Below, piece after piece: positions 7,754 through 54,415 of a stretch of DNA of 63,762 nt (the first letter of the stretch is position 1; each line of letters begins with the position of its first letter). The position numbers were made by a program, and so were the translations under genes. The notes beneath the pieces were generated by a model. The model was not told the DNA's origin and ran no database searches. It saw only the letters and a program-made list of their open reading frames with translations. This DNA is from Chloroflexia bacterium (GTDB taxonomy: Bacteria > Chloroflexota > Chloroflexia > Thermomicrobiales > CFX8), in assembly GCA_030431755.1 (NCBI GenBank), contig JAUIIK010000008.1, positions 1 to 63,762 on the forward strand, given 5' to 3'.

Positions 7754-8365
7754 GTGAACGAAAGTGACGGAATCGAAATGTCATACGTGCCAACCGTAGC
7801 CCCGGGAACGGGGTCGCGGGCGCCACACCGCATTCTGGCCCGCGAGAGCAAGGCCGCGATGGCCTTCGTCGAGCGCAACTTCTATCTGACGAAGCGCTAC
7901 TGGGGCTGGGAGGTCGCCTTCCTCGTCTACACGGCTGCATCGTCGCTGTCGATCATGTTCATCGGCGCGTCGCAGGATGGCGACACGAACCGGTTGATCC
8001 TCTTCCTGGCGATCGGGACGCTCGTCTGGGGCTACCTGAACTCGGTCTTCATGAACGTGGCCGAGACGGTCGCCTGGGAGCGCTGGGAAGGCACGATCGA
8101 GTACACGATGATGGCGCCGGTCTCGCGGGTGACGCACATGTTCGGGATGTCGCTCTTCGCGATCATCTACGGGCTGATCCGCTCGACTGTGCTCTTCCTG
8201 GTGCTGGCGGCATTTTTCCCGGAGATCAGCCTCTCGGAGGCGAACCTGACCGGCGCCGCGCTGGTAATCGCCGCCGGTAGCTTCTCGTTCATCGGCTTCG
8301 GGATCGTCGGCGCGGTGCTGCCGCTGCTCTTCCCGGAGAAGGGCGAGCAGATGACGTTGATGATG
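7754..8365 (+). pseudogene. ABC-2 permease, 5' part (interrupted by prophage)
   Basis: This encodes the first 204 residues of an ABC-2 type membrane permease, with four predicted helices (about residues 52-72, 77-100, 133-155, 162-186). It ends ...PEKGEQMTLMM, where the TGA is the first prophage codon. The missing part, starting TFIISSILLLVSG, is at 53459-53740. Joined at the shared ATG the frame is continuous and gives about 298 residues and six helices, the normal ABC-2 size. The start may be GTG 7754 or ATG 7778. It is intact in sequence and merely interrupted, so precise excision would restore it. Confidence 0.9.
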
Positions 8366-9884
8366 TGAACACAAGCGGGATGAGCTCGCGGGGGAAGAGG
8401 GCGCTGGTGATCTGCCAGCGCGGGGTGCGCTGGCCGGCGGGCCAGATGTTGACGCGCAGCTGGAGGGCGCGCAGGAGGTCGCGGCGCTGCTGCCAGTCCA
8501 TGCTGTCGAGCTGGGCGGCGACGGAGGCGCGCCAGGTATCGAGGCTGTCGAGGGCGGCGCGGCGCTGGGCGGTATCGGCCTGGCGGGTGGTGAGCTCGGC
8601 GCGCTCGGCCTCAAGGTCGCGCCAGCGCTGGCTGAGCTGCTCCAGCTGGGCGACGAGAATGGTGGTGGTGTCGGGGTCGTCGGTCTGGCCCAGGGTGCGG
8701 GCGAGGTTGGCGCGCTGCCGATCGAGGCCGGCCAGCTGCTGCGTCACGGCTACGAGGTCCCCGTCGTCGTCGGTGGTGGACTCGGCCAGGAGGGACGACA
8801 GGACACGTGGCTGCTCGATGAACCAGCGGACGCGCTCCCAGACGTCGGCGTCGAGGGCGCTGCGCTTGATCCCCATGCGGTGACCGCCGCCAACACAGAC
8901 ATACTGATTCGACTGATTGTTGACAACCAGGTTGCGGCCGCAGACGACGCAGCCGATGAATCCCGCACGCAGCAGCGAATCCTGCGGGCGCGGGTTGTTG
9001 CGGGTCGCTTCGCGGACGTTGGCGGCCAGGCGGCGGCGGGCGGCGCGGCCCTGGGCGGCCGAGACGAGGGCCGGCACGACACCGTCAGGGAGCTGAATAG
9101 GGTCGGGCGCGTCGGGGAGCATGCGCGTCTTCGGGCCCGAGCCGTTGCGGCGCTGGAGCGGGTGGCCCTGCCAGCGGAAGGCGAGGGCCTCGCCGGCGTA
9201 GGCCGGGTCGTGGAGGATCAGGCGCACGGTCGACGGACCCCAGGTGGGCCGGCCGGTGGGCGAGGGCACGTTGTCATCCATCAGGCCGCGGGCGATGGCG
9301 CGCAGGCTCGCGCCGGCGTTGAACTCGCGGTAGATGCGCCGGACGATAGGAGCCTCGGCCGCATTAACGGCCAGGGCGGTGTTGTCGTCACGCCAGAGGT
9401 AGCCGTACTTGGGCTTCGGGCCGGGGATGTACTTGCCTTGCTCGGCGCGGGCGCGGCGGCCGCGGTTGGTGCGCTCGGCGATCTTCTCGCGCTCGACCTC
9501 GGCCACGAAGGCCTTGGCGCTGAGAATGAAGCGGCCGACGGCGGAGTCCTCGAACTCTTCGGTGACGAGCTCCAGGCGCGCGCCGGCGTCGATGATCTCC
9601 TCGACGAGGATGGCGACGTGGGCCTGGTTGCGGCTGAGCCGATCGAGGGCGTAGCAGAGGACGACGTCGGGGCCGCTGGAAACGCTGGCCAGGACCTGGC
9701 GCAGCGCGGTCAGGCCGGGGCGCTCGCGGTACTGCGCGCCGGTGTAGGTGTCGCTATAGACGCCAGCGACGGCGTAGCCGTGCTCCTCGCAGTAGGCCAG
9801 GCAGGCGCGTTGCTGGGTGTCGAGCGAGGTGCCATCGAGCTCCTGCTGGTCGCTGGAGACACGGGTATAGATCAGGGCGTGCAT
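8289..9884 (-). CDS. int: Large serine recombinase (phage integrase), lysogen form
   Basis: Catalyses attP x attB integration. The N-terminal resolvase domain has ALIYTRVSSDQQ with the nucleophile at Ser10 and the DRLSR motif near residue 82; a recombinase domain follows, then a zinc ribbon (IGCVVCGRNL...YVCVGGG, about 310-335) and a coiled coil (about 385-455). Residues up to Thr507 are phage-encoded. The last 24 residues, ending PRRRSRSR, are read from host DNA beyond attL. In the circular phage the same frame would continue into the right end for 14 residues to a TAA at 53412-53414. Start ATG follows GAGGGAGCAACG. Confidence 0.97.
   Translation of the reverse strand: MHALIYTRVSSDQQELDGTSLDTQQRACLAYCEEHGYAVAGVYSDTYTGAQYRERPGLTALRQVLASVSSGPDVVLCYALDRLSRNQAHVAILVEEIIDAGARLELVTEEFEDSAVGRFILSAKAFVAEVEREKIAERTNRGRRARAEQGKYIPGPKPKYGYLWRDDNTALAVNAAEAPIVRRIYREFNAGASLRAIARGLMDDNVPSPTGRPTWGPSTVRLILHDPAYAGEALAFRWQGHPLQRRNGSGPKTRMLPDAPDPIQLPDGVVPALVSAAQGRAARRRLAANVREATRNNPRPQDSLLRAGFIGCVVCGRNLVVNNQSNQYVCVGGGHRMGIKRSALDADVWERVRWFIEQPRVLSSLLAESTTDDDGDLVAVTQQLAGLDRQRANLARTLGQTDDPDTTTILVAQLEQLSQRWRDLEAERAELTTRQADTAQRRAALDSLDTWRASVAAQLDSMDWQQRRDLLRALQLRVNIWPAGQRTPRWQITSALFPRELIPLVFTSSTSSARPSPGRAAAAPRRRSRSR
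8363..8374. other. attL junction
   Basis: Host permease sequence ...GATG joins phage sequence TGAACACAA at a shared ATG (8363-8365). The phage arm GTGAACACAA (8365-8374) is the reverse complement of the phage arm at attR. The only bases common to both junctions are ATG, as expected for a serine integrase with a very short crossover. Confidence 0.88.
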
Positions 9885-9940: not shown

Positions 9941-10372
9941 TCAGGCGACGCAGGCGCGCGCCTCGTTGACGCCGTGGTCAGTGACGCCGCCGAAGTGCCC
10001 CCAGTCGGAGAACTCGCGCGCCAGCCCGTCGACGGCGAAGATCGGGCCGCTGTTGGGTGACAGGTTGCTCGATGCCCACACCGCGACCTCATGGCCGCCA
10101 TCGAGGCCGGGGCCCTGGAGGTCGGCGGCAATCATCCAGACATCTTCGTAGTCATCCGAGCGCACGGCCTGGCCGTTGCGGAGCGAGAGCCCCGGCTCCA
10201 GCCCGGCGGCGATAGCGTCGAGCTTGCCGGCCGAGACGGCGCGACAGGCGCTGGCGGCGCTGCTGTCGTCATCGCCGAAGTTGAGAAACACAACAACCGC
10301 GGCAATCGCCATGCAGCCCAGCACGGCTAGGCCGCCGGCGGCTGCCAGGGCCAGCCAGGCGCGGCGGCTCAT
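9941..10372 (-). CDS. Membrane-anchored prophage protein
   Basis: A 143-residue protein with an N-terminal hydrophobic helix (about residues 6-31, AWLALAAAGGLAVLGCMAIA) and an exported C-terminal domain with two cysteines. The 'VLGC' inside the helix is only a weak lipobox. Its ATG overlaps the repressor stop (ATGA), and it lies between repressor and integrase in a leftward lysogeny operon. That position fits a lysogenic-conversion or superinfection-exclusion role, but this is inference. Confidence 0.72.
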   Translation of the reverse strand: MSRRAWLALAAAGGLAVLGCMAIAAVVVFLNFGDDDSSAASACRAVSAGKLDAIAAGLEPGLSLRNGQAVRSDDYEDVWMIAADLQGPGLDGGHEVAVWASSNLSPNSGPIFAVDGLAREFSDWGHFGGVTDHGVNEARACVA

Positions 10373-10851
10373 GTGGCGCTGTCCTGGGTTGTCTTGCCGG
10401 CGGGCCGGCCCAGCTGGAGCGCCTCGATGACGATGCGTTGGGCGCCGGGCGCGAGGCCCTGGGCGCGCTGGACCCACTCGGCGATGAGCTCCGGGGTGAC
10501 AATGGTCGTCTCCTCGACGGTGATCTCGGGCGGCTCGACGGCGTAGCCGGCGGCCCTGAGCAGCTCGGCGACGGTCGTCCGCAGCGCCGCGGCAAGTGGG
10601 TTGAGGAGCTCGGCGGGCGGCACCGGGCTATCGGGGTTGCTGAGCTCGAGCCGGCTGATGGTGTGCTGCGAGCGGCCGAGCTGGCTGGCGAGCTCCCGCT
10701 GGGTGAGACCCAGCTCCTCGCGTTTGGCGCGCACGGCCGGGCCGAGACGGTTGGGGTAGCGGAGACCGGCTTCGGCGTGGATCGACGTCGGCTCGTTGGG
10801 CTCGTGCACCCGACCTTCTTTCGCGAGTTGCGCGTACAGCGTACCGTGCAT
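10369..10851 (-). CDS. XRE-family transcriptional repressor
   Basis: A Cro/CI-type helix-turn-helix (RAKREELGLTQRELASQLGR...ISRLE) with a C-terminal helical tail lacking a LexA-type protease dyad. It is the probable prophage repressor: it is divergent from the early rightward genes, across a promoter-operator region at 10873-10932. An in-frame ATG at 10887 would overlap that promoter, so ATG 10851 with GTGGAGAA upstream is preferred. The absence of a self-cleaving domain suggests induction by a route other than RecA-driven cleavage. Confidence 0.87.
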   Translation of the reverse strand: MHGTLYAQLAKEGRVHEPNEPTSIHAEAGLRYPNRLGPAVRAKREELGLTQRELASQLGRSQHTISRLELSNPDSPVPPAELLNPLAAALRTTVAELLRAAGYAVEPPEITVEETTIVTPELIAEWVQRAQGLAPGAQRIVIEALQLGRPAGKTTQDSAT

Positions 10852-10872
10852 GCGATTCTCCACTCTGGGTAC

Positions 10873-10901
10873 TTGACGGTCAAGCATTTATGCCGTATTC
10901 T
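10873..10901 (+). promoter_or_regulatory. Early rightward promoter (PR-like)
   Basis: TTGACG (10873-10878), 17-bp spacer, TATTCT (10896-10901), driving the early operon that starts at 10954. Operator-like palindromes lie just downstream, at the expected transcription start. Confidence 0.8.
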
Positions 10902-15787: not shown

Positions 15788-16349
15788 GGCGACATTGGAC
15801 GACGTGTTCACCGTTGCCAGGACCTGGCTGGCGCACTCGCGTTTCTTCCCGACCGTCGGCGACCTGGCCTCGCCGATCGAGGGGCACGTCGCGGCCCGGC
15901 TGCGCGCTGAGGAGGTCGCCCAGGCGCAGGTAGCCGCGACGCCGGTGGCCATGCTGGATGGCGTGCCGGACTACGCGGCCATGCCAACCCGCGATCTGCC
16001 GCCTGGCTACGACTACGCCGGCGACCCCCACTGGCAGCGTGGCTTGAAGCGCTTCCAGGCGCTGAAGGCCGAGGGGGCGCACTCCAGCTGGGGCCAGGCC
16101 CTGGCGAACATCCCGGCCAGCGCGCCCGGTTTCCAGGGGGCGACGAAGGCGCGGACGCTGGACTGCCCGGACTGCAAGGGCGCGCGCTACCTGCGGCTGG
16201 GCGAGTGGGACGCCGGCCGCGGCGAGCACTTCGGCCGGCTGGGCTCGCACTACGTGGCCTGCCCGACCTGCTGTCCCTACGGCACGTATGACCCCCAGGC
16301 TGAACGCGCCGCCGCGCAAGCCGCGGCACTGAGCGGGGCACTGGCATGA
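15633..16349 (+). CDS. Helicase-loader-like replication protein with zinc finger
   Basis: A 238-residue protein. The N-terminal region (W..MYRAFLMVERKATLDDVFTVARTWLAHSRFFPTVGDL) resembles the G39P/DnaB-loader-type domain of phage replication modules, and the C-terminus has a zinc knuckle (CPDCKGARYL...CPTCCPYG). I start at TTG 15633 because AAAGGAG lies 7 nt upstream; it overlaps the initiator gene in another frame. It probably helps load the host replicative helicase, since no phage helicase gene is visible. Confidence 0.62.
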   Translation: MISPNEELSVESNLEGLVAMLAEATTDRSGMSDSEIGRWALMYRAFLMVERKATLDDVFTVARTWLAHSRFFPTVGDLASPIEGHVAARLRAEEVAQAQVAATPVAMLDGVPDYAAMPTRDLPPGYDYAGDPHWQRGLKRFQALKAEGAHSSWGQALANIPASAPGFQGATKARTLDCPDCKGARYLRLGEWDAGRGEHFGRLGSHYVACPTCCPYGTYDPQAERAAAQAAALSGALA

Positions 16350-17863
16350 GCACGACATCGCACAACGAGAGCACCAGAACGGAGCACCCCATGACGACGA
16401 CCCTCTCTGATTCCGCACGAAATACGGACGCGCTGGTGCGCGAGATTCCGGTCGACCGGATCCACCGCAGCACCTTCAATCCGCGCCAGACCTTCGATGG
16501 CGAGCGCCTCGACGAACTGACAGCCTCAATCCAGCAGCACGGGCTGATCGAGCCGGTGGTGGTGCGGCCGCATCCCGACCCCGAGGACCTGCTGGGTTCT
16601 GGCGCGGATAGCTGGGTCGAGGAGCACTACGAGCTCATCGCCGGCGAGCGGCGCTGGCGGGCGGCACGGCAGGCCGGCCTCGAGGTGATCCCGGCGATGG
16701 TGCGGGATGTCGACGACGCGACGGCGATCCAGCTGGCGATCGTTGAGAACCTGCAGCGGGCCGATCTCGACCCGATCGAGGAGGCGGCGGGCTTCCAGCT
16801 GCTGATCGAGCGCGCCGGCATGACGCAGCGGGCGGCGGCGGCGGCGCTGAATCGCTCGCAGCCGGCGATCGCCAACGCGATGCGATTGCTGCGGTTGCCC
16901 GCCCATGCCCAGGACCTCATTCGCGAGGGCAAGCTAAGCCGGGCGCACGGCGTGGCGCTGATGCGCTTCGAGGAGTTCCCTGCGTTTCAGGAGGCGCTTG
17001 GCGACGTCGCAGTGAAGGACGGCCTGGCGAGCAAGGAGCTGGAGAAGCCCTTTGACAGCTACGACGTTGCCCGGCGGCTGCAAGGCGTGGCAGTTCCGCT
17101 CTACACGCGATTCGACGAGTGTGAGGACTGCCCGTTCAACGCGAGGCGCAAGGGTCAGTACCACGATTACTGCCTGAAGCCGGAGCACTTCGAGGAGCTC
17201 AGCGAGGCACGCGCCGCGGCGCGCGATGCCGAGCGCGACGAACGGCGGGCGGAAGCGGAGGCCGCCGGGGAGCTGCCGTCGATCCGGGACGTCGGCAGCC
17301 ACGAGGACCTGAGCTATGCGCTGGACCCGACAGCGGGCTGGACGAGCGTGCCGGCCGGCTGTAGCGAGGACTGCCCCTGCCGTTGTCGTGTGCTGAGCTG
17401 GCAAGGCGACCAGGTCATCCAGATCTGCGCCGACCCCGGCCGATACCGCGAGCTCCAGGAAGCTGAGAAGCAAGCCGAGACCGAGCGTAAGAAGGCGACG
17501 CTGGCGGGCCGCCTGGCGCAGCTCGAAGCAGCAATCGACGACCTACCGGCGCTGGGAACGATCGCGCCGGAAGAGCTCATTGTGCTGATGGGCGCGGCAC
17601 TGGAGCGCGTTGGCAAGAAGTCATTGCCGGGCCTGGTGGCCGAGCGTCAGGGGCATGCCGGGCTGGCCGAGCACCAGGACTGGAGCCGGTTCACGGTCCA
17701 GGAGCAGCCGCAGTTGTTTGGCCAGCTTGCAAGTCTCGACATCGTGAAGTTCGCACTGGAGGTGGTGCTGCGGAACGAGCTGCTGGACCGCTACGAGGGC
17801 TATGCCCGGAGCTCGCCACTGGCGGACTTCTACCTCGGCCCGGATGACGGCGAGGCGGCATGA
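16346..17863 (+). CDS. ParB/Spo0J-like DNA-binding protein
   Basis: A 505-residue protein. ParB N-terminal motifs (VDRIHRSTFNPRQTF, QHGLIEPVVVRPH, ELIAGERRWRAA, IVENLQRADLDPIEEA) are followed by a helix-turn-helix (MTQRAAAAALNRSQPAIANAMRL). The long C-terminal half has cysteine clusters (CEDCPFNARR...C, GCSEDCPCRC). No parA lies next to it, so it may act in replication or regulation (or use the CTPase/nuclease fold) rather than partition. Confidence 0.85.
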   Translation: MSTTSHNESTRTEHPMTTTLSDSARNTDALVREIPVDRIHRSTFNPRQTFDGERLDELTASIQQHGLIEPVVVRPHPDPEDLLGSGADSWVEEHYELIAGERRWRAARQAGLEVIPAMVRDVDDATAIQLAIVENLQRADLDPIEEAAGFQLLIERAGMTQRAAAAALNRSQPAIANAMRLLRLPAHAQDLIREGKLSRAHGVALMRFEEFPAFQEALGDVAVKDGLASKELEKPFDSYDVARRLQGVAVPLYTRFDECEDCPFNARRKGQYHDYCLKPEHFEELSEARAAARDAERDERRAEAEAAGELPSIRDVGSHEDLSYALDPTAGWTSVPAGCSEDCPCRCRVLSWQGDQVIQICADPGRYRELQEAEKQAETERKKATLAGRLAQLEAAIDDLPALGTIAPEELIVLMGAALERVGKKSLPGLVAERQGHAGLAEHQDWSRFTVQEQPQLFGQLASLDIVKFALEVVLRNELLDRYEGYARSSPLADFYLGPDDGEAA

Positions 17864-18603
17864 GCGGGCTGCGGACGGACCGGATTCCGAAGGCGGTTGC
17901 GGACGACCTGTGGCCGACGGACACGAACAACGGAGAGGACGACGAGATGAGCGGACCGATAACGGTCACGACGGCGCACGGTGAGGCGGTCACGGTGGAC
18001 AGCATCGAGGAGCTGAGTACCAACCCGGAGGTTCGCCGGCAGGCGGGCGAGGTCGTGAAGCGTGCGGTGGGTAGTGCGGTCGAGCGGGTGAATTCTGCAT
18101 CCCAGGATTCGGAATTCCGAATTCCCGACGTCGTCTACGGCGACTTTCAGGACGCGCCGGAGCTGGGGCGGCTGGCGCGGGCGCTGGCTGACGAGTACGA
18201 GGGCGACCCGCGGGTCAACGACGTGCTCTGGCACAGCGAGGGTTGCGAGATTCGCTACGCCTGGAAGCGGCAGGGCGGCCGCGCGAAGGGGCGGGCGACG
18301 TTGGGGAAGTGCGTGAAGCTGTCCGGCCCGGCGAAGCACTTCGCCAAGGGCGCGGACTTCCTGATCTGGATCGCCTGGGATCACACGCGCAACCTCGCCT
18401 TCACGCGCCAGGACATGCTGGCCCTGCTCTTCCACGAGCTGCACCACATCCAGCGGGACGTGACGGACGACGGCGAGGACGTCTACAGCGTGCGTGGGCA
18501 CGACCTGGAGGTCTTTTTCGCCGAGATCGAGGTTTTTGGGGCCTGGCTGGACGACATCGAGCGCGGTCGGAAGGCCTTCGAGCAGCTGGGACTCGGGGTG
18601 TGA
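17860..18603 (+). CDS. Putative phage metallopeptidase
   Basis: A 247-residue protein with a zinc-metallopeptidase motif HELHH within MLALLFHELHHIQRD at about residue 190 and a conserved FLIWIAWDHTRN block before it. The pattern fits the putative phage metallopeptidase family found in replication modules, where a nearby acidic helix gives the third ligand. ATG 17860 (overlapping parB-like stop) or internal ATG 17947 after GGAGAGGACGACGAG could be used. Confidence 0.7.
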   Translation: MSGLRTDRIPKAVADDLWPTDTNNGEDDEMSGPITVTTAHGEAVTVDSIEELSTNPEVRRQAGEVVKRAVGSAVERVNSASQDSEFRIPDVVYGDFQDAPELGRLARALADEYEGDPRVNDVLWHSEGCEIRYAWKRQGGRAKGRATLGKCVKLSGPAKHFAKGADFLIWIAWDHTRNLAFTRQDMLALLFHELHHIQRDVTDDGEDVYSVRGHDLEVFFAEIEVFGAWLDDIERGRKAFEQLGLGV

Positions 18604-22268: not shown

Positions 22269-22634
22269 ATGTTTCGCTGGACCCGGACACGCGAAAAGGC
22301 CGCACTAGCACTCGCAAACGGGTCTACCCGGCATGAAGCGGCTGAAACCGCTGGCGTGACCGAGCGCACGATCTACAAGTGGCTCGATACTGACGAGTTT
22401 GCGGCCGAGGTGGACCGGCTGAGTCTGATGACCGATATTGCCGGGCGAGCCGAGCGACTGCGGATTGCGAAGCGCGTCGTGCGGCAGCGGCTTCAGGCCG
22501 ACGGCGTCTACGTGACAGACAAGGACTTGCTGGAGTGGCTGAAGTTCGCGCAAAGTGAGACAGATGGTATCAAGCTCGACCTTGCCGCCATCGCAGAGGC
22601 TGCGGCATCTGTGGCCGGTCAAGGACAAGACTGA
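22269..22634 (+). CDS. Terminase small subunit
   Basis: A 121-residue protein with an N-terminal HTH (ANGSTRHEAAETAGVTERTIYKWL) of the phage terminase small-subunit type, which recognises the packaging site. It directly precedes and overlaps the large subunit. ATG 22269 chosen over an upstream TTG. Confidence 0.8.
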   Translation: MFRWTRTREKAALALANGSTRHEAAETAGVTERTIYKWLDTDEFAAEVDRLSLMTDIAGRAERLRIAKRVVRQRLQADGVYVTDKDLLEWLKFAQSETDGIKLDLAAIAEAAASVAGQGQD

Positions 22635-23961
22635 ACTAATTCGACGGCAGGCTGCGGCCGGGGCCGAACATGCGCTGATCCGCCCGCCGGTTGAGGAGTG
22701 GGTGCGGAGCTGCACGATTGCCCATCCCCAGCAGGGGGAGATCGCCTTCGAGCCCTATCCCTACCAGGACGAGTTCTTTGCCGACGACTCCTCCAGCCGG
22801 CTGATCCTGAAGGCGCGGCAGACGGGCATCAGCCTGAGCTGCGCGATTGAAGCCCTCTACTACGCCCTCCACGGCCGCGAACGCATCCTGTTCATCTCGA
22901 AGACACTCGAAGACGCGAAGGAGCTGCTGGGCTACGTCCAGGATGTCTACCAGCTGCTCGACGATCCGGCGCAGGAGCTGGTGCGTGAGAACCTGACGGA
23001 GATGGAATTCGCGAACGGCTCACGTATCCGTTCGCTGCCGGCGACGAAGGGGGCGGGGCGCGGCTTCACGGCGACGCGGGTCTACCTCGACGAGTACGCC
23101 TTCGCGGAGTACGCGGCGCAGATCTACCGGGCGGTGCGGCCGACGCTGTCGCGCGGTGGGCAGCTGACGATCCTCTCGACGCCGGACGGCCAGGACAATG
23201 AGTTCTTCAAGCTCTGGCAGGGACTGATCGAGGGCCACTGGAGCAAGCACAAGATTCACTGGAGTGAGTGCCCGGAGTACGACGAGGGCTGGTTCAACCG
23301 AGAGCGGCCCAACTACACCGCCCGCGACTGGGCTTCGGAGTACGAGTGTGACTTCGTGGCGTCGGGCGAGGCGGTCTTCCTGCCGGAGGATGTCCAGAAG
23401 TGCGCGGACGGTTGGGTCGGCTTGCAAGCGCCGCGACTGGGCGGCCGCTACGTGACGGCCTGGGACATCGGCCGGCGGCGGGACGCGACGGTCGGAATCA
23501 CGCTCGACATCGGCCCACGCTTCGACGCGGACGGCGCGTTTCTGTCGGACGACTGGCAGGTGGTGGCCTTCGAGCGCTTTCTGGGGCTGCCCTATCCCGG
23601 CATCCAGGCTGCTATCGAGCGGCGGGCGGCGCTCTACGACCCGCAACCCTGGGTCGAGTACAACGGCGTCGGCGACCCGGTCATTGAAAACCTCGCGATC
23701 GAGGCGACCCCCTTCACGACAACCCAGCGCTCGAAGCACAACGCGATCACGGCGATGGCGCTGGCGGTCGAGCACCAGGTGCTGAAGCACGCGGTCCCCC
23801 AGCTGCGGGACGAGATGCTGACCTACCAGTGGGAGGACAAGAAGCTCATCCAGGACGCGGTGATGGCGTGCGCGATTGCCTGCTGGGCGGCGGAGCGGAC
23901 GGTGCCGGAGGAGCAGATGATGGTCGAGGACGACTACGTCGAGATTGGACCGCAGATATGA
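22561..23961 (+). CDS. Terminase large subunit
   Basis: The 466-residue packaging motor has a Walker-A-like KARQTGIS at about residue 84, Walker B VYLDEY at about 174, coupling motif LTILSTP near 203, and a C-terminal RNase H-like nuclease (TAWDIGRRRD near 300; EYNGVGDP near 366). The start is uncertain (GTG 22555 or ATG 22561), overlapping the small subunit. Confidence 0.93.
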   Translation, partial: QMVSSSTLPPSQRLRHLWPVKDKTELIRRQAAAGAEHALIRPPVEEWVRSCTIAHPQQGEIAFEPYPYQDEFFADDSSSRLILKARQTGISLSCAIEALYYALHGRERILFISKTLEDAKELLGYVQDVYQLLDDPAQELVRENLTEMEFANGSRIRSLPATKGAGRGFTATRVYLDEYAFAEYAAQIYRAVRPTLSRGGQLTILSTPDGQDNEFFKLWQGLIEGHWSKHKIHWSECPEYDEGWFNRERPNYTARDWASEYECDFVASGEAVFLPEDVQKCADGWVGLQAPRLGGRYVTAWDIGRRRDATVGITLDIGPRFDADGAFLSDDWQVVAFERFLGLPYPGIQAAIERRAALYDPQPWVEYNGVGDPVIENLAIEATPFTTTQRSKHNAITAMALAVEHQVLKHAVPQLRDEMLTYQWEDKKLIQDAVMACAIACWAAERTVPEEQMMVEDDYVEIGPQI

Positions 23962-25645: not shown

Positions 25646-25815
25646 TCTACGCGCTGATCGTTGCCGTGTTCGTTGCCGGCTTTGGACTGGGAGGGTTCTT
25701 GATGGTCTTCGCCCAGAAGTGGCTGACGGGACGCCAGATGCAGCAGATGATGAGTGACCCTGGCATGGTCGGCCTGATGGAGTCCTTCGAGTTGCGCCGA
25801 AGGGAAGAGGATTGA
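25642..25815 (+). CDS. Small membrane protein in the head module
   Basis: 57 residues with one N-terminal hydrophobic helix (LIVAVFVAGFGLGGFLMVFA) and a Met/Gln-rich tail (GRQMQQMMSDPGM). Function unknown. Confidence 0.58.
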   Translation: MIYALIVAVFVAGFGLGGFLMVFAQKWLTGRQMQQMMSDPGMVGLMESFELRRREED

Positions 25816-26699
25816 TCTCGTCGTTGCCCTGGGAGTCGGCGGGGCGGGTGCCGGGTGCGCTGGTCGAGGCGGCCGAGTCGCTGGAGCAGGCCGTAGCACG
25901 ACGGCGGAAGCTGGCGGACCTGGCGTTGCCGGAGGAGCGGCTGGCAGCGCGGTTGCGGACGGTGTTCCGGGCCCAGGAGCGGGGCTTCCTGCGGCGGCTG
26001 GAGGCGGCCCGGCTGGCCCGGACGGTCGTCGAGGCGGCGCGGCTGTGGGAGGCCGACGATGACGACGAGCTCGACGTCGGCGACTGGGAGCGGCTGTACG
26101 ACGAGGCGGCGGCCGAGACGGCGCCGGCGCTGGAGTCGGCGCTGGCGACCTGGATCGACACGGCGCTCCACGCGGGCTTCGCGGCCGGCCTCGCGCCGCT
26201 CCAGGTGCAGCTGAGCCTCCAGCTGGCCAACCCACGGGCGGCGGCCTATGCCAACGAGCGCGCCGCGGCGCTGGTGACGCAGATCGACGGCGTGACGCGG
26301 GAGCAGATCCGCAAGCTGGTGACGCAGGCGACGAGCGAGGGGCAGAGCTACCAGCAGCTGGCGCGGGAGATTCGCGAGCGCTACGCCACCATGCACACGC
26401 CACAACCACAGCGGCACATCCGGGACCGGGCCGAGCTGATCGCGATCCAGGAGCTCGGCGAGGCCTACGAGGCGGGCAACTACGCCGGCGGCGAGGCGAT
26501 GCTACGGGCCGGGGTCGCGCTGGAGAAATACTGGCTGACGGTGGGCGACGACCGGGTGGACCAGGAGATCTGTGCCGCGAACCAGGCGCAGGGCTGGATC
26601 CCATTCCGCGCCGAATACCAGAGCGGCCACCAGCGGCCATTGGGCCACGTCGGCTGTCGCTGTACGCAGCTGACGCGACGGAAACCGGAAGGAGATTGA
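25812..26699 (+). CDS. Minor head protein (SPP1 gp7/Mu F-like)
   Basis: A 295-residue helical protein from TTG 25812. Its C-terminus carries the family signature: IAIQELGEAYEAGN, then KYWLTVGDDRVDQEIC, and ending in GHVGCRCTQL. These proteins associate with the portal and procapsid. Confidence 0.83.
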   Translation: MISSLPWESAGRVPGALVEAAESLEQAVARRRKLADLALPEERLAARLRTVFRAQERGFLRRLEAARLARTVVEAARLWEADDDDELDVGDWERLYDEAAAETAPALESALATWIDTALHAGFAAGLAPLQVQLSLQLANPRAAAYANERAAALVTQIDGVTREQIRKLVTQATSEGQSYQQLAREIRERYATMHTPQPQRHIRDRAELIAIQELGEAYEAGNYAGGEAMLRAGVALEKYWLTVGDDRVDQEICAANQAQGWIPFRAEYQSGHQRPLGHVGCRCTQLTRRKPEGD

Positions 26700-29982: not shown

Positions 29983-31245
29983 ATGAGTGCAGTTGCAGAG
30001 TTCGTCGAGCGCGCCGGGGAAGACTTTCGCGCCGACCGCACCCACACCAACCTGCGCGCCGACAGCCAGGAGCTCCGGACGCTGCTGGCCGAGAGTGGCC
30101 CGCGGGCGTCGAAGCGGGCCCGGCAGACGGCGGCCTACAAGCGCCGCATCAGCGAGGCGCTGGGCTTCTGGAGCGAGATCCTGGGCGGCAACCGCAACGC
30201 GCTCTGGATGCACGAGGGCGGCGTGGCGATCGGCTTGGAGGAGGCGATGGGCACGAGCGATTTCCCGCTCTTGACCGGCGACATCCTCGACCGCTCGCTG
30301 CTGGGCCGTTACCAGGAGCAGCCGGCCGGCTGGCGCAACTACATCGGCTACCGGGCCGTGCGGGACTTCCGCCAGGTGCGGGAGATCGCCGTCGACGGCC
30401 TCGAAGGACGGCTCGTGCCGGACTACAAGACGGCCGAGATGGAAGAGCCGCGCGAGAGCGCGCTGTCCGAGACGGGCTACCTGTGGAACGTCGAGGTCTA
30501 CCAGCGGATCGCGGCGCTGAACTGGCGCCTGATCATCAACGACGACCTGGACGCCTTCACCGACATCCCGGTGCGCTTTGCGCGAGGTGCGCGGCGGACG
30601 CAGGAGTACTACGCGGCGACGCTGCTGGCGGACACCAACGGCCCGTCGGCCACGTTCTTCACCAACGGCAACAGCAACATCGTCAACACGACCAACCTGC
30701 CGAGCGCGTCGGACGACAACCCGGCGCTGTCGACGGTGGCGATCCAGGACGCGCTGACGCTGCTGATGAGCCAGACGGACGCCGACGGCGAGCCGATCAT
30801 GTTCGACAGCTTCGAGCTGGTTGTGCCGACGTCGCTGAAGATCACGGCCGAGAACATCATCCAGACGATGCAGTACCGGGTGACGGACTCCAGCGGCAAT
30901 GTGATCCAGCTGGTGACCGGCAACGGCCTCGGCGCGAACATCCGGGTCACAGTCAACCCGTACCTGTCGGTGGTCTCGTCGAATGCCAACGGCGCGACCA
31001 GCTGGTACCTGATTGCGACGCCGATGGCGGGCGCGCGGCCGGCGTTCCGGATGGGCTCGCTGCGCGGCTATGAGGAGCCGGGGCTTTACCGGCTGGCCGG
31101 CAACACCGAGCGTGTCGGCGGCGGCATCGTGCCGGAGCTGGGCGACTTCCACACGAATGAGCAGAAGTACAAGGTCATGCTCATTCTCGGCGGCCGACAG
31201 GTCGACCCGAAGTGCGCGGTGGCGTCGAACGGCTCCGGCAGCTAA
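29983..31245 (+). CDS. Major capsid protein
   Basis: A 420-residue protein in the position and size of the major shell subunit, with GAGAGAGGAACG before ATG. A Mu-gpT-like appearance (YKTAEMEEP...YLWNVEVYQRIAALNWRLIINDDLDAF) rather than the classic HK97 delta domain. It is downstream of protease and decoration genes and followed by connectors. Confidence 0.82.
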   Translation: MSAVAEFVERAGEDFRADRTHTNLRADSQELRTLLAESGPRASKRARQTAAYKRRISEALGFWSEILGGNRNALWMHEGGVAIGLEEAMGTSDFPLLTGDILDRSLLGRYQEQPAGWRNYIGYRAVRDFRQVREIAVDGLEGRLVPDYKTAEMEEPRESALSETGYLWNVEVYQRIAALNWRLIINDDLDAFTDIPVRFARGARRTQEYYAATLLADTNGPSATFFTNGNSNIVNTTNLPSASDDNPALSTVAIQDALTLLMSQTDADGEPIMFDSFELVVPTSLKITAENIIQTMQYRVTDSSGNVIQLVTGNGLGANIRVTVNPYLSVVSSNANGATSWYLIATPMAGARPAFRMGSLRGYEEPGLYRLAGNTERVGGGIVPELGDFHTNEQKYKVMLILGGRQVDPKCAVASNGSGS

Positions 31246-38628: not shown

Positions 38629-41600
38629 GTGCGCCCGCTCCTCTCCTTAGGAGAGGGTGGGCGTTTTTTCGTGGACGCGGGCGAACTGGCAATCATTCTG
38701 CGGCTTGTCGATCAGGCAACCGCAGACCTCAAGCAAGCCAAGCAAGTGTTGAAGGATCTCGGCGACGAGTCCGCGACTGCCGCTGCCCAGGTCGACAAGC
38801 TCGACGCCTCATCCGGCACGCTGAACAAGACACTGGGTAATCTGGCGCAGTCGGCGGTGACGGGCGTTGGCGCGTTCCTCGGCTACCGCGCCGTGGACAC
38901 GGTAATGACGGGGGTCGGGCAGGCCTTCGACTTCGTTAAGAGCAGCGCCATCGGCATGAATTCCGACCTGGAGACGGCGGCGCTTCAGTTTGAGACGCTG
39001 ATGGGGAGCGCCAGCGAGGCCGAGAAGCACGTCGCTGATCTCTTCGAGTTCGCGGAACGAACCCCATTCGAGACCGCGCCCATCATCGAAGCAAGCCGCC
39101 TGTTGGAGACCTTCGGCGGCGAGGCGCTGAATACGACGGAGCAGCTCACCCGGCTGGGGGATGCGTCGGCTGCGACGTCGGGGCCGATTAACGAGTTGGG
39201 GTTTTGGACTGGCCGGCTCTACTCGCAGCTTGAGTCTGGGAAGCCATTCGGCGAGGCGGCGATGCGGCTCCAGGAGCTCGCCGTGCTGTCTCCTACGGCA
39301 CGCGCCGAGATGGAGGCGCTGCAAGCAGCGGGCGCGAGCTCGGCGGAGGTCTTCCGCGTATTCGAAGCGGACCTCGACCGCTTCAGTGGGGCGATGGAAC
39401 GCCAGGCTGGGACGTGGGCTGGACTGAGGTCGACACTGACCGACTCCCTGGCGCTGGCCGCCAGCCAGGGGCTCAAGCCATTCTTCGAGCTTGCCAAGGA
39501 CGGCCTCGACGAGATCAACAGGTATCTCGGTTCTGCCGAGTTCGATGACTTCGCTAACGGCTTCGCGGCCAGTATGCAAGTGGCGGCTGACGGTGTGCGG
39601 GGACTGATCTCGACTGTCCGTGATCTGGCCGCAAGTCGGGACTTCGCCGAATTCGCATCGACCATGCAAGGCGTTGGCGACATCGTGCTGGACGTCACCA
39701 CGGCAACGGGCAGGCTGTCTGTTGTTGTAGGCAAGGAGCTGGTGCCCGCAGTCGGGGATGTGATTGTCGGCCTGGAGCCCATTGTCACGGGCCTCCAGTC
39801 ACTCATTGACACCATCGAGGCGATCCCCACCCCGGACGAGCAGAAAACCGAAGACTGGCGACGGTTCTGGGAAGGCGTCGCGGACGGCAGTACCGGCGCG
39901 TCAGAAGCAATGGCGAACTGGGCAGTTGATCTCCTGCCGCGAGTTAACGACGGAAGCCTTGAACTGCTGGATGGACTCATCCGCATCAATGGCGTCTTCG
40001 GTGACATCGAGGAGGCGACGCGCTCCCTCACCACCACCACTGACGACAACGCGGACGCCACGCAGCGCCAGATTGAGTACCAACGCCAGAATGCTGAGAT
40101 GTCGGACGAGGCGCGGGCTGCGGTGGCCCGGCTCACCGACACCACCGCAGATGCGACGTTGGCGTACCACAGGCATAACCAGGTGGTCGAGGACAGCGGC
40201 GAGGGCCTGACGGCATGGGAAGTCCACATGCTCAATGCCGCGGCGGCGACCTACGACGTCCAGTCGGCATTGTCGGGGCTGGAGGGCGCGTACCAGGCGG
40301 CCGGGGATGCCGCGAACATCTTCAACCAGCAGTCGAGCGAGTACGGCCAGATCGCGTCGACGATCGAGGCGGCGCGGGATGCGCTGATCGAACGGCAGCA
40401 ACAGAACATCGACCTGACGATGGAAGAGCAGCGCTTCCTCGAAAACTACCCGCAGATTTACGACCGCGTCACCGGCGCGCAGGACGACGCCACGATCCAG
40501 GCTGGACTATTCGCAGGGAGCCAGGTGGACGTCATGCTCGCGCAGGATGACGCGGCGGCCTCGTCCGACAACCTCGTCAGCTCGGTTGGTGACGCCAACG
40601 CGGCGCTGGCTGATGCGCAGGCGCAATCGGGCTTGACGACGGACGGCGCGCTCGACCTGGCGGCGGCGCTGTCCGATGTCGGAATCGAACTTGGCAATTT
40701 GGATGGTCAGTCGGCGACGCTGGCGCTGAATCTCGCCGAGGGTGGCGGCGTGGGCACAACGGCGGGCGCGCGCGGCGGCGCGACACGCTTCGAGCAGCGC
40801 GCCGAGGACCTGGGGATTACCGGGCGCATTCAGGGCGCGGGCGCGGCGCTGGCGGACCTGGACGGCTCGTCCGCTGAAGTGACGGCTACGGTCGATGACG
40901 TCGACGCGCGCACGGATCTTGAGTGGATCGAAAACACCAAGAACCGGCTAGACGGATCGGGTTTCGTGATTGTGGCGTCCGTCGACACCTCTGCGGTAGA
41001 CCGCGCCGTGCAGTACATCGACGACAGCCTGCCGCACTCGCCGGCGAAGCGGGGGCCGCTTTCACGCGAACCTGACTGGCGCTTCCTCTTCGGCACGATG
41101 CCGGCAGCGGCCGGGGCAGCGGTGGATGAGACCGTGCGGAACATTGGCGCGGAGTTCGACATCCTCTTCGCCCACATCACCGAGGGCTGGGGGCAGGTCG
41201 TCACGGCGATTCAGCACGACTTCACCGGCCCGAACATCGTCGACATCATGACCGGCGAGGCGGCGTCGAACCTGGAGCAGGACATCGCGGCGCTACAGGC
41301 GTACATGGACGCCCTGCTGGAAGCCGGCTTCGCGCCGGACAGTCCGGAGATGCAGGCGCTGCGGCAGCGCTACCAGGAGCTGATGCAGGAGCTGGCGCTG
41401 GTCTCTGAGATTGCCGGCACGGACGCAGCCAAGGAGTACTGGCGCGAGTGGGCCGACGAGAACCTGCCCAAGAGCTACATGCGCGGGCTGGTCGACATCT
41501 TCGAGGAGTTCGGCATCACCGCCGGCGAGTACTTCGCCGAGGCCTTCTGGGACGAGTTCGCGTCGGGCCCGGGCCGTCCTGGCGACGGCAGCGGCTCGAT

Positions 41601-42465
41601 CATCGACAAGCTGCTGAATGGTGATGACGAGCCGATCGGCGTGCCGATCGAGATCGAGGTGCGGGCGCGGGACATCGGCGGCGACGAGGTCACGCTGGTC
41701 GAAGGCGTCCAGCAGATCGCCGAGGAGGCGCTGGCCGAGCTGGCGCGCATCTTCGCGGAGTACCCCGAGGTCGCGGTCGGCATGGTTGACGACCTCGTGC
41801 AGGCCGTCGTCGACGGGCGCTTGCCCTTCGAGGAGGCCATGCGCTTGCTGGCAATGATCCCGGAGGACGACCTGATTCCCGCGCTGGAGCGGCTGGAGGA
41901 GCAGCTGACGGTCGACCTGGCCGAGGCGCTGTTGAAGTTCGGGCCGAACTCGCCGGAGGTCCAGGCCATCCTCCAGGCGCTGCAGGCCATCGAGGCGGCA
42001 GCGAGCGCGACCGACGACGCCATCAGTCAGATCCCGGACAGCCTGGCCAACCTGCCGGGCTCAAAGGGCTACCAGGCGCCGGGGGATCAATCGCCGGGTG
42101 GCGTGGGACCGACGGGCTCGGTCGCGCCGGTGGGCGGCTTCGGCGGCCTGGCGGACATCGACGCCCTGACGGCGCAGCTGGCGGGCGGGGCGCGGCTGAA
42201 CCTGCCGGCCGACCAGTTCCGGCAGGTCATGCAGGCGCTGCAGGCGACGGTCTACCTGGACGATGACGGGCTCTACCGGCCTGATCCGGGCGGCGGCTTC
42301 ACCCTCTACGGCTCGCCGGGCGACTACTACGTCAACCCCTACGGCCCCAACGGCGGCCAGGGCGGCGGAGGCGACACGCACATCTACATCGACGGCCGGG
42401 AGGTCACCAGCGCGGCCTTGCAGCACCTGCGGCGGGAGACGCCGGTCGGGACGGTAGCCCCATGA
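38629..42465 (+). CDS. Tape measure protein
   Basis: Up to 1278 residues; sets tail length and is ejected with DNA. It has the usual tape measure N-terminus (AIILRLVDQATADLKQAKQVLKDL), a conserved domain with FETLMGSASEAEKHVADLFEFAERTPFE, and long helical stretches, then a Gly/Pro-rich C-terminus. Start GTG 38629 has AGGAG 9 nt upstream; GTG 38671 right after the terminator is the alternative. Confidence 0.9.
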   Translation: MRPLLSLGEGGRFFVDAGELAIILRLVDQATADLKQAKQVLKDLGDESATAAAQVDKLDASSGTLNKTLGNLAQSAVTGVGAFLGYRAVDTVMTGVGQAFDFVKSSAIGMNSDLETAALQFETLMGSASEAEKHVADLFEFAERTPFETAPIIEASRLLETFGGEALNTTEQLTRLGDASAATSGPINELGFWTGRLYSQLESGKPFGEAAMRLQELAVLSPTARAEMEALQAAGASSAEVFRVFEADLDRFSGAMERQAGTWAGLRSTLTDSLALAASQGLKPFFELAKDGLDEINRYLGSAEFDDFANGFAASMQVAADGVRGLISTVRDLAASRDFAEFASTMQGVGDIVLDVTTATGRLSVVVGKELVPAVGDVIVGLEPIVTGLQSLIDTIEAIPTPDEQKTEDWRRFWEGVADGSTGASEAMANWAVDLLPRVNDGSLELLDGLIRINGVFGDIEEATRSLTTTTDDNADATQRQIEYQRQNAEMSDEARAAVARLTDTTADATLAYHRHNQVVEDSGEGLTAWEVHMLNAAAATYDVQSALSGLEGAYQAAGDAANIFNQQSSEYGQIASTIEAARDALIERQQQNIDLTMEEQRFLENYPQIYDRVTGAQDDATIQAGLFAGSQVDVMLAQDDAAASSDNLVSSVGDANAALADAQAQSGLTTDGALDLAAALSDVGIELGNLDGQSATLALNLAEGGGVGTTAGARGGATRFEQRAEDLGITGRIQGAGAALADLDGSSAEVTATVDDVDARTDLEWIENTKNRLDGSGFVIVASVDTSAVDRAVQYIDDSLPHSPAKRGPLSREPDWRFLFGTMPAAAGAAVDETVRNIGAEFDILFAHITEGWGQVVTAIQHDFTGPNIVDIMTGEAASNLEQDIAALQAYMDALLEAGFAPDSPEMQALRQRYQELMQELALVSEIAGTDAAKEYWREWADENLPKSYMRGLVDIFEEFGITAGEYFAEAFWDEFASGPGRPGDGSGSIIDKLLNGDDEPIGVPIEIEVRARDIGGDEVTLVEGVQQIAEEALAELARIFAEYPEVAVGMVDDLVQAVVDGRLPFEEAMRLLAMIPEDDLIPALERLEEQLTVDLAEALLKFGPNSPEVQAILQALQAIEAAASATDDAISQIPDSLANLPGSKGYQAPGDQSPGGVGPTGSVAPVGGFGGLADIDALTAQLAGGARLNLPADQFRQVMQALQATVYLDDDGLYRPDPGGGFTLYGSPGDYYVNPYGPNGGQGGGGDTHIYIDGREVTSAALQHLRRETPVGTVAP
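38631..38670 (+). terminator. Intrinsic terminator at the start of the tape measure gene
   Basis: GCGCCCGCTCCTCTCC, loop TTA, GGAGAGGGTGGGCG and then TTTTTT. It overlaps the first codons if translation starts at 38629, or ends at GTG 38671 if that is the start. It would stop transcription into the tail genes unless antiterminated. Confidence 0.78.
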
Positions 42466-51089: not shown

Positions 51090-51202
51090 CCATCTGGACG
51101 ATTGACCGCATCAAGGAGATTGCGTTGGTGCTGCTGGCCGGGGTGCTGGTGGGCTTCGGCATTGGCCGGCGGCGGTACATCGGGAAGATGCCGAGGTATT
51201 GA
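51086..51202 (+). CDS. Very small membrane protein
   Basis: 38 residues with one helix (IKEIALVLLAGVLVGFGIG) and a basic tail; coupled starts on both sides. May be a holin partner or an antiholin. Confidence 0.5.
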   Translation: MTIWTIDRIKEIALVLLAGVLVGFGIGRRRYIGKMPRY

Positions 51203-51203
51203 G

Positions 51204-52568
51204 ATGACCACTCTCCCACTACTCGCCAATCCATCTGAGGCGTTCCGGCAGCCAACGCTGATCGACTTCGAGCTCTTCCACCAGGAGGCCGACAAGAAGG
51301 GGATGCTCGACTCTCCGCTCTTTGCGTACATCCCGTCGATGGTCGAGCGGGTGGCGAGGCTGCGGCTGATCTACGACCGGATCGTTGCCGCCGGTCACTC
51401 GGCGGAGGTCTGGCTGGCGATCGCCGGCAAGGAGCACACCTGGGGCACGGCGGCGGACAGCGTCCTGCGCCGGAACGACACCCGCAGCTGGACGAACGCG
51501 AAGACGATCCAGGACCCGGGCATTGCCGGCCGGCGCGTCTATGACGAGGTGCGGCGCGATTGGTACGCAGCCTACGACGACGTCGAGGACAGCGTGCGGG
51601 ACGGCATCTACCGGATCGATGACCCGACCTATGCCTACAAGGACGCGGTGTCGATCGGCGAGGTCGTTCAGGTCTTCGCGCCGAAGGAGGACAGCAACGA
51701 TCCCGAGGGCTACGCCTGGTGGATCGTCAACTACGTCAACGGTCTGCGGAGCCGGATGGTTGCGGCGGCGCCGGGCGGTGACACGCCGTTGGTGCCGTGG
51801 ATTCCGGCCGATGGCCGGCACTTCACGCGCGGCCGGAGCGAGCCGTGGCCGTACTACTACATTCAGCATCACACGGACGGCTGGGACTCGCTCTTCTGGC
51901 TTACAGAATCTCCGAACTCCAACGTGTCGGCGACCTATCTGGCGAACCACGACGGTTCGTTGCGCGGCCAGCTGGTCCGGCATCAGGACACGCCGCACAC
52001 GACCGGGAAAATGAACGACGACTCACTGTCGATGGAGTGGGAGCGCAAGTGGAGCGGGACGACCGAGCAGCGTGAGGTCTCGTTGGCGCAGTACCGCAAG
52101 CTGGCGGCGGCATGGCATCTGATCATCCAGGTCGAGTACGAGCGGGGCAATCCGCACCTGCGGGATGCCGCCGGCAACCTGAAGCTCGATCGGGATCAGC
52201 TGCGGGACCACAACGATTTCTACGCGACAACGTGCCCGGGCAACCTCGACATGGACCGGCTGTACGAGCTGGTGCAGGCGGAGATCGCCGGGGCGACGAA
52301 CCCAAACGCGCTCATCATCGACGGTATCGCGGTGGTGCTCGGCTTCAAGGATCACTTTTTGGAGGTCGGAGCGGCGGTCTACCCGGAGGACCCGGTTACT
52401 GGCGGCATCGCGCACTTCGGGAAGCCAGTGGCAGCCGAATACGAGACGGAGTTCGGGAGTGCCCAGCCATTCGAGGGCTATGTCATGGAGTGGCATCGCG
52501 GGAACAATCCGCCGTTCGACATCATCCGCACGCTCCGTGGTCAACCGGACCCGGAACGTGCCGCGTGA
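51204..52568 (+). CDS. Endolysin: N-acetylmuramoyl-L-alanine amidase
   Basis: A 454-residue lysin. An N-terminal domain (about 40-160; GHSAEVWLAIAGKEHTWG) resembles glucosaminidase/lysozyme-like folds. A central amidase_2 domain (about 215-360) has the zinc ligands expected in YYYIQHHTDG and near TTCPGNLD. The C-terminal 80 residues may bind the wall. It lies after the holin-like genes. Confidence 0.85.
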   Translation: MTTLPLLANPSEAFRQPTLIDFELFHQEADKKGMLDSPLFAYIPSMVERVARLRLIYDRIVAAGHSAEVWLAIAGKEHTWGTAADSVLRRNDTRSWTNAKTIQDPGIAGRRVYDEVRRDWYAAYDDVEDSVRDGIYRIDDPTYAYKDAVSIGEVVQVFAPKEDSNDPEGYAWWIVNYVNGLRSRMVAAAPGGDTPLVPWIPADGRHFTRGRSEPWPYYYIQHHTDGWDSLFWLTESPNSNVSATYLANHDGSLRGQLVRHQDTPHTTGKMNDDSLSMEWERKWSGTTEQREVSLAQYRKLAAAWHLIIQVEYERGNPHLRDAAGNLKLDRDQLRDHNDFYATTCPGNLDMDRLYELVQAEIAGATNPNALIIDGIAVVLGFKDHFLEVGAAVYPEDPVTGGIAHFGKPVAAEYETEFGSAQPFEGYVMEWHRGNNPPFDIIRTLRGQPDPERAA

Positions 52569-53280: not shown

Positions 53281-53376
53281 CGGCAGTTTGCCCGCTTCAT
53301 AGTCCGCAGACTCCACGGGCAGACCTCCACTGCCAGGTCGGCCGCGAGTCTACCTGATTTGGTGCGGAATAGGATG

Positions 53377-53404
53377 CGCCCGGTCGTTGTGGCCGGGCGT
53401 TTGT
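53377..53404 (+). terminator. Terminator at the right end of the prophage
   Basis: CGCCCGG, loop TCGTTGTGG, CCGGGCG and then TTTGTCGTT. It closes the lysis operon just before attR. Confidence 0.72.
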
Positions 53405-53445
53405 CGTTGGCTTAGACGGGGTCGTCGGGCCAGGGGATGCGCTCG

Positions 53446-53458
53446 TTGTGTTCACATG
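53446..53458. other. attR junction
   Basis: Phage arm TTGTGTTCAC (53446-53455) joins host ACCTTCATC at the shared ATG (53456-53458). Combined with the attL arm, the rebuilt attP core is TTGTGTTCACAT followed by GTGAACACAA, a perfect 22-bp palindrome. The stop codon of the unintegrated integrase is at 53412-53414 (minus strand). Confidence 0.88.
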
Positions 53459-53740
53459 ACCTTCATCATCTCATCGATTCTGCTGCTTGTCTCGGGCGTC
53501 TACTACCCGATCTCAGTCCTGCCGGGCTGGATGCAGCCCTTCTCTGCGATCTCGCCTGCCACCTATGTGCTGGAGGCGATGCGTTCGGCGATCCTCGATG
53601 GCGCGCCGGTCGCGGATCTCTACGGCGACCTCGCCGCGCTGGGCCTGATAGCGGTGATCTCGATCCCGCTTGGCATGGCGGTCTTCGGCTACTTCGAGCG
53701 CTACGCCAAGCGCACCGGCCGTCTCAAGCGCTCGGGCTAA
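53459..53740 (+). pseudogene. ABC-2 permease, 3' part (displaced by prophage)
   Basis: Encodes the last 93 residues of the permease: TFIISSILLLVSGVYYPISV, the typical ABC-2 segment PISVLPGWMQPFSAISPATY, and a final helix. In the lysogen an ORF from GTG 53387 in prophage DNA reads into it. Joined to 7754-8365 it restores a full six-helix permease. Confidence 0.9.
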
Positions 53741-53887: not shown

Positions 53888-54142
53888 ATGAAGACGACAA
53901 CGGCTAAAGGCTTCCGGCGCGAACTCAGTGATCACCTCAGCCAGGTTGAGTACGGTGGTGAGCGCGTCACCGTAACCAGGAACGGCAAACCTGCAGCGGT
54001 ACTCGTCTCGCTCGATGACTATGAACTGATTCGGCAGATTGAGGATCGGATTGACGGTGAGGCTGCCGAGGAGGCGATCCGGGAAGCCGATGCCCAGGGC
54101 TGGCTTTCCTGGGAGGAAGCTACCGGCGAGCGCGAACCGTAG
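53888..54142 (+). CDS. Phd/YefM-family antitoxin
   Basis: An 84-residue protein: FRRELSDHLSQVEYGGERVTVTRNGKPAAVLVSLDDYELI is the Phd/YefM DNA-binding domain, and the acidic C-terminal tail would wrap the toxin. Three bp before the toxin gene. Confidence 0.9.
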   Translation: MKTTTAKGFRRELSDHLSQVEYGGERVTVTRNGKPAAVLVSLDDYELIRQIEDRIDGEAAEEAIREADAQGWLSWEEATGEREP

Positions 54143-54145
54143 TCC

Positions 54146-54415
54146 GTGAAATATACGATTACCTGGTCGCGTCGAGCTTCGCGAGCACTCGAAAGGCTCC
54201 AGCCATCCACAAAGCGCCGCGTTCTCGACAAGGTTAGACGCTTGGCCTCTGATCCGAGACCACCTGACTGTGAGTCGCTCCAAGGCTATCCCTACTATCG
54301 TGTGCGAGCTGGCGACTATCGGATCATCTATGACATCCGCGACGATGAAATTCTCGTCAGTGTGGTCCTGGTTGGTCATCGACGTGAGATCTACGAGCAG
54401 GTGAGACGCCTCTAG
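54146..54415 (+). CDS. RelE/ParE-family toxin
   Basis: An 89-residue protein from GTG 54146. The pattern YTITWSRRASRALERLQPSTKRRVLDKV and GDYRIIYDI...VVLVGHRREIYE is the RelE fold. RelE toxins cut mRNA on the ribosome; ParE relatives target gyrase. The sequence looks RelE-like. Confidence 0.9.
   Translation: MKYTITWSRRASRALERLQPSTKRRVLDKVRRLASDPRPPDCESLQGYPYYRVRAGDYRIIYDIRDDEILVSVVLVGHRREIYEQVRRL

Follow-up and report, generated by a model that had tools for sequence, protein, structure and literature searches.

The attachment site (attP) of a prophage in a Chloroflexia bacterium lies inside the 3′ coding end of the prophage's own large serine integrase gene (int), and integration exchanges the C-terminus of the enzyme for one encoded by the host chromosome. 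We observed this arrangement in the positions of the sites, in both reading frames, in the empty host site of relatives and in its recurrence among related integrases. Once attP precedes the integrase stop, some exchange of the tail is automatic; what is not trivial is the position of that stop beyond attP. We consider it likely that the overlap spares the enzyme and that the tail swap is a tolerated by-product.

Results

The analyzed stretch of DNA (the window, 63,762 nucleotides) contains a prophage with recognizable structural and lysis genes, inserted in a gene for an ABC-2 permease. Its relevant features are as follows:

7754-8358, + strand: 5′ part of the ABC-2 permease gene (open reading frame; closes at 8368 via phage DNA)
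8289-9884, − strand: large serine integrase gene, lysogen form, 531 aa (open reading frame; PF00239, PF07508; PHROG 95)
8289-8356, − strand: host-encoded integrase tail and stop codon (permease antisense DNA; predicted disordered)
8359-9884, − strand: constant phage-encoded part of the integrase, residues 1 to about 508/509 (from the crossover position)
8341-8374, no strand: attL, with host B arm 8341-8356, TT 8357-8358 and phage P′ arm 8359-8374 (GATGATGTGAACACAA)
8357-53463, no strand: prophage, ~45.1 kb
22555-23961: terminase, prophage gene
25812-26699: Mu F-like, prophage gene
29983-31245: head protease, prophage gene
38629-42465: tape measure, prophage gene
51102-52568: endolysin, prophage gene
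53376-53400, + strand: terminator-like hairpin where the phage left arm ends, about 11 nt beyond the stop of the phage-form integrase; weak
53412-53463, − strand: phage-form integrase tail (...RSCEHNERIPWPDDPV) with TAA stop at 53412-53414 (rebuilt attP junction)
53446-53479, no strand: attR, with phage P arm 53446-53461 (TTGTGTTCACATGACC), TT 53462-53463 and host B′ arm 53464-53479
53464-53740, + strand: 3′ part of the ABC-2 permease gene (open reading frame, rebuilt flanks and intact homologues)

Joining the host flanks yields an open 293-residue ABC-2 permease frame, the protein of which matches PF01061 (2.8e-14). At least four family relatives (G001-G004, 71-74% identity) carry the permease gene without an interruption, and the attB residues QMTFIIS are the same in all four. 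Elsewhere in the prophage, the gene at 16346-17863 encodes ParB N-terminal and ParB HTH domains and adjoins a predicted phage metallopeptidase gene (17860-18603). On the attR side the host gene is flanked by a Phd/RelE-like pair, recognized by eye only, in which a short frame resembling an antitoxin (53888-54142) is followed by one resembling a toxin (54146-54415).

Alignment of attL and attR reveals the common pattern ATGAC-S-TT-S-AT-S-AT around a central TT. Judged from its place at the center of the attP and attB palindromes, this TT (8357-8358 and 53462-53463) is most likely the crossover dinucleotide. The rebuilt attP, TTGTGTTCACATGACC-TT-GATGATGTGAACACAA, is a 34-bp imperfect palindrome with 14 of 16 arm positions paired around the central TT, and it sits ahead of the stop codon of the phage-form integrase. 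The rebuilt attB, GATGACG-TT-CATCATC, is also symmetric; both sites are short and palindromic with a common central dinucleotide, as in serine integrase systems. The palindrome score alone is not decisive, as similar scores arise by chance in GC-rich DNA here, but the position of the attP palindrome coincides with restored continuity of the host gene. The predicted attP junction of the excised circle reads TTGTGTTCACATGACCTTGATGATGTGAACACAA (or with G beside the TT). Over ATGACSTTSATSATSTSA, attL (8350-8367) and attR (53455-53472) agree save for G/C at every third base, and the phage half-site resembles the host codons at the landing site (MTLMM vs. MTFIIS). A comparable half-site likeness occurs in the related element G018a described below, with TGGATGGG on both sides.

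The frame at 8289-9884 matches the Resolvase (PF00239, residues 3-152, 3.8e-32) and Recombinase (PF07508, 2.3e-13) families and PHROG 95 integrases (4.8e-87), and its profile matches include the SPbeta YokA and A118 integrase structures. The catalytic serine, S10, is invariant in comparison A1 and nearly invariant in A2, the zinc-binding cysteines C312 and C315 are invariant in both, and the AlphaFold model contains the long helices of a coiled coil at 374-446. As the first-pass annotation had described, the frame runs through attL into permease antisense DNA and gives a lysogen form of 531 residues; its count of 24 host-encoded residues has to be lowered, because residues 508-509 are common to both forms and 22 are wholly host-encoded. 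Across the rebuilt attP the frame gives a phage form of 525 residues ending in ...LVFTSSRSCEHNERIPWPDDPV. The 521 residues proposed earlier were too few, since that reading passed from '...LVFT' to CEHN and omitted SSRS, although its placement of the TAA at 53412-53414 agrees with the rebuilt frame. An alternative crossover at AC would make the phage form read SSTS instead of SSRS, with the length unchanged. With both frames rebuilt and the host gene restored, the central claim that attP lies inside int and that integration swaps the C-terminus is upheld.

In the AlphaFold model of the lysogen form, the last strand spans residues 489-493 and pLDDT is <50 over residues 506-531. The model of a phage-form integrase from a viral contig (L067) is similar, with a last strand at 496-502 and low pLDDT (below 50) at 512-528. 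Among relatives, the part of the lysogen tail that lies entirely beyond the inferred crossover varies from 0 to about 150 residues and has no common sequence; two relatives end at the inferred crossover with 0 added residues, the stop codon straddling the junction. The basic PRRRSRSR end of the lysogen form in the window is probably a composition effect, because other relatives whose integrase frame enters GC-rich antisense DNA have Arg-rich ends too, and on this account we rejected the Arg-rich tail as a DNA-binding or localization signal.

Many genomes from the bacterium's order encode integrases that are about 35-47% identical to the window integrase. The closest relative by score (G018a, 46%; L023/L024, at G018:C1:2484000-2512000) is resolved on both sides: an 8.6 kb element splits a macro-domain gene, the second half of which lies 8.6 kb away, and its attP palindrome pairs 14/16 arm positions and takes top rank in the end-to-end scan. 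Counted from the same codon, the G018a integrase has 518 aa when integrated vs. 523 aa in the phage form, and the tails differ (lysogen ...SRVHYWPRSRWRRPRRR, phage ...SRVGWVHNHLTLRWTDRDALAA). Relatives of this integrase in the named collection belong to Sphaerobacter and Thermomicrobiales, and a Sphaerobacter MAG carries an insertion at the same point of the same macro-domain gene. The integrase frame of other relatives continues, in antisense, into an interrupted gene (a secA end, a luciferase-domain gene, a transposase gene and, probably, apparent MFS transporter and methyltransferase genes); the luciferase domain alone is confirmed by profile, the others being recognized by eye. On viral contig L048/L067, flanked by apparent phage genes on either side of int (identities by eye), an intact palindrome, GTTTGGGTTCTCTACCTC-GT-CAAGTAGTGAACCCAAAC, pairs 13/16 arm positions and is centered 43 nt before the integrase stop, so that int on this contig seems to contain an attP that has not recombined. 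Only in the window and in G018a is the crossover resolved on both sides; in the other cases it is placed by where the motif lies or where host genes break off, and decay of some of these integrases is possible. The first-pass annotation had proposed looking for the same layout in related prophages, and the rebuilt G018a, the several run-ins into host genes and the palindrome inside the viral integrase gene provide it.

A TTGTGTTCACTAC-like motif that resembles an attP arm is found close to the int 3′ end in 14 members, at comparable positions and always in one reading phase (the search region was that after the conserved core, and a G036 candidate that was out of phase was left out). Its information amounts to 10.3 bits vs. 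7.7-8.3 in shuffled regions. At two motif codons the third base is A/T in 13/14 and 14/14 members vs. about 2.3 expected from int-wide usage, a test that is partly circular, as the motif was chosen on DNA; phase was no part of the search. On the simplest reading of these sequences, the P′ half-site would belong to the coding sequence across the group. Because related integrases repeat the layout and the arm-like motif is in frame in 14 of them, the integrase C-terminus appears to be routinely rewritten by integration in this group.

Several relatives, among them L005, L012, L016 and L017, have no convincing motif ahead of the integrase stop. Single-protein searches of viral and genome contigs found no close relatives of the window integrase, scans with L048, L044 and L050 added almost no new relatives, and a search of viral contigs for the window attP sequence had no match. 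No convincing attR emerged from an inverted-repeat search for the second end of the G018b, G011, G057 and G036 elements, nor did a Luciferase-domain search find the other half of the G011 luciferase gene on its contig. In six named phages whose serine integrases are more distant, the int 3′ coding end shows no clear palindrome; in some of them, a palindrome lies just upstream of int.

Three further observations concern related integrases. At L046 4504-4548, a perfect 16+16 palindrome, GGCGTATTGATCACAACGTGATCACGTTGTGATCAATACGCC, lies 22 nt past the stop of a related viral integrase and is a candidate attP without int overlap. The genome that carries the prophage encodes a second serine integrase (G000:C123:56402-57931), 39% identical and with one in-frame TAG. 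In a Thermomicrobiales MAG (L069 11540-11700), a ~54-bp direct repeat takes in the integrase tail and stop and extends further, past the stop.

Discussion

In the explanation that we favor, attP overlaps the 3′ end of int, and the codons that follow the last structured strand double as the P′ half-site. The reading frame in the phage circle crosses the second half-site and meets its stop 16 codons further on. Integration cuts int at the crossover, and the lysogen integrase keeps its catalytic, zinc and coiled-coil parts whole and receives a tail whose sequence depends on the host DNA next to attB. Both forms would be active enzymes with a dispensable tail. Direction would depend not on the tail but, as with other serine integrases, on the difference between the att sites and on a directionality factor. 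The overlap may persist because enzyme and site stay together at little cost, in contrast to integrases that break themselves. We regard the tail swap as a by-product that is tolerated, because the tails are predicted to be disordered, lie past the last strand and vary among relatives, and because the last 21 residues of phiC31 integrase, which follow its last strand, are reported to be non-essential (PMC5737554).

A rather unlikely alternative, to which we nevertheless give some weight, is control of the integrase by integration. The phage-form 3′ end (tail, stop codon and hairpin) would limit the level or activity of the enzyme, as a destabilizing tail or RNA element that is exchanged in the lysogen, and the swap to host DNA would make stability or expression dependent on integration. 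The phage form of G018a ends in ...DALAA, where the host tmRNA tag is GNESYALAA, and its lysogen form ends in RRPRRR. In both rebuilt elements a hairpin lies within about 6-11 nt past the phage-form stop and is separated from int by integration. However, the phage form in the window ends in PWPDDPV though the host tmRNA tag is GEEQLALAA, and the L048 integrase ends in LIGEG, with no strong hairpin beside its stop. The hairpin in the window is weak, as a consensus scan found 1 vs. 0.5 in shuffles, and it is terminator-like on the opposite strand only, where it would serve late genes. Three phage-form ends allow attP to be placed with some confidence; only one of them has the ALAA tag, and the idea of a degradation tag common to phage forms was therefore rejected. 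A regulatory role of the swapped 3′ end is possible in some members, for example G018a, and a stability effect of the tail swap is likewise possible.

It is highly improbable that the tail sets direction, with the 525-residue form favoring attP × attB and the 531-residue form attL × attR recombination. The infecting and lysogenic states do carry different integrase forms, and the first-pass annotation took the two tails for a directionality or timing signal. This proposal is not supported by the low pLDDT of the tails past the last strand, by the reportedly dispensable tail of phiC31 integrase or by the lysogen tails of relatives, which have neither sequence nor length in common and in two cases are absent. 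Furthermore, integrases with mismatched C-terminal protein fusions were reported to retain full attP × attB recombination but to perform attL × attR recombination poorly or not at all (PMC5737554). We give hardly any credence to a trivial read through attL, with the integrase stop lost or the att site mis-called and no attP/int overlap in the phage: although any frame crossing the junction meets some stop, GC-rich antisense frames are long and palindromes of similar score arise by chance here, the phage arm at attR brings its own in-frame stop, the junction is fixed by host gene continuity, and a second element (G018a) is alike while a viral contig holds the palindrome inside int.

The tolerated exchange that we favor can be set against several known systems. 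With phiC31, Bxb1, A118/LI and SPbeta YokA, the window integrase has in common the Resolvase and recombinase domains, zinc-binding cysteines, coiled coil and final strands, as well as short palindromic attP and attB sites with a central dinucleotide and an att site beside int. Unlike in this type, attP in the window overlaps the int 3′ coding end; the attP of phiC31 lies upstream of int. The arrangement is also reminiscent of the retroregulation of lambda int by sib, in that integration separates int from a 3′ element; sib, which affects int expression, acts on the mRNA beyond attP, and lambda attP is not known to lie inside the int coding sequence.

In the integration-dependent immunity of mycobacteriophages, which has a known function and involves a tyrosine integrase, attP lies in the repressor gene, and the viral repressor and integrase carry tmRNA-like tags (PMC8092301, PMC9262239). 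The likeness consists in an attP within a coding sequence and in differing C-termini of the viral and prophage proteins, and it extends in G018a to an ALAA end of the phage form that is lost on integration. Unlike in that system, the altered protein here is not the repressor but a serine integrase, for which the role of the change is putative: attP in the window lies in int, and a repressor-like HTH gene upstream of int (10369-10887) is untouched. The tmRNA-like end was found in G018a only, the phage form in the window ending in PDDPV vs. ALAA in the host tag. Archaeal suicidal (SSV-type) integrases likewise have their recombination target inside their own gene and are inactivated by integration, a behavior reported to be exclusively archaeal (PMC8371274). 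Unlike these tyrosine recombinases, which are split on integration, the enzyme described here is a serine recombinase whose structured part stays whole and which exchanges only its 22 terminal residues.

The first-pass annotation knew of no description of such a tail swap, and in the papers searched, mostly without subscription journals and thus weak evidence of absence, we also found nothing relevant on a serine integrase with attP inside its own gene. Overlaps of attP with int 3′ ends may have been reported earlier for other phages. A serine integrase whose gene contains attP at the 3′ coding end, and which comes through integration with its tail supplied by the host, seems, from this search, to be undescribed.

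The integrase described here would be a bacterial, serine-type counterpart to the archaeal self-destroying integrases, one that loses its tail alone and in which attachment site and enzyme are kept as one compact unit. For annotation, it means that integrases predicted from prophages of this group carry C-termini from the host chromosome, of up to about 150 residues, and the phage form should therefore be worked out before such an enzyme is used as a tool. The recombinase family also represents a natural series of tail variants for testing the role of the C-terminus.
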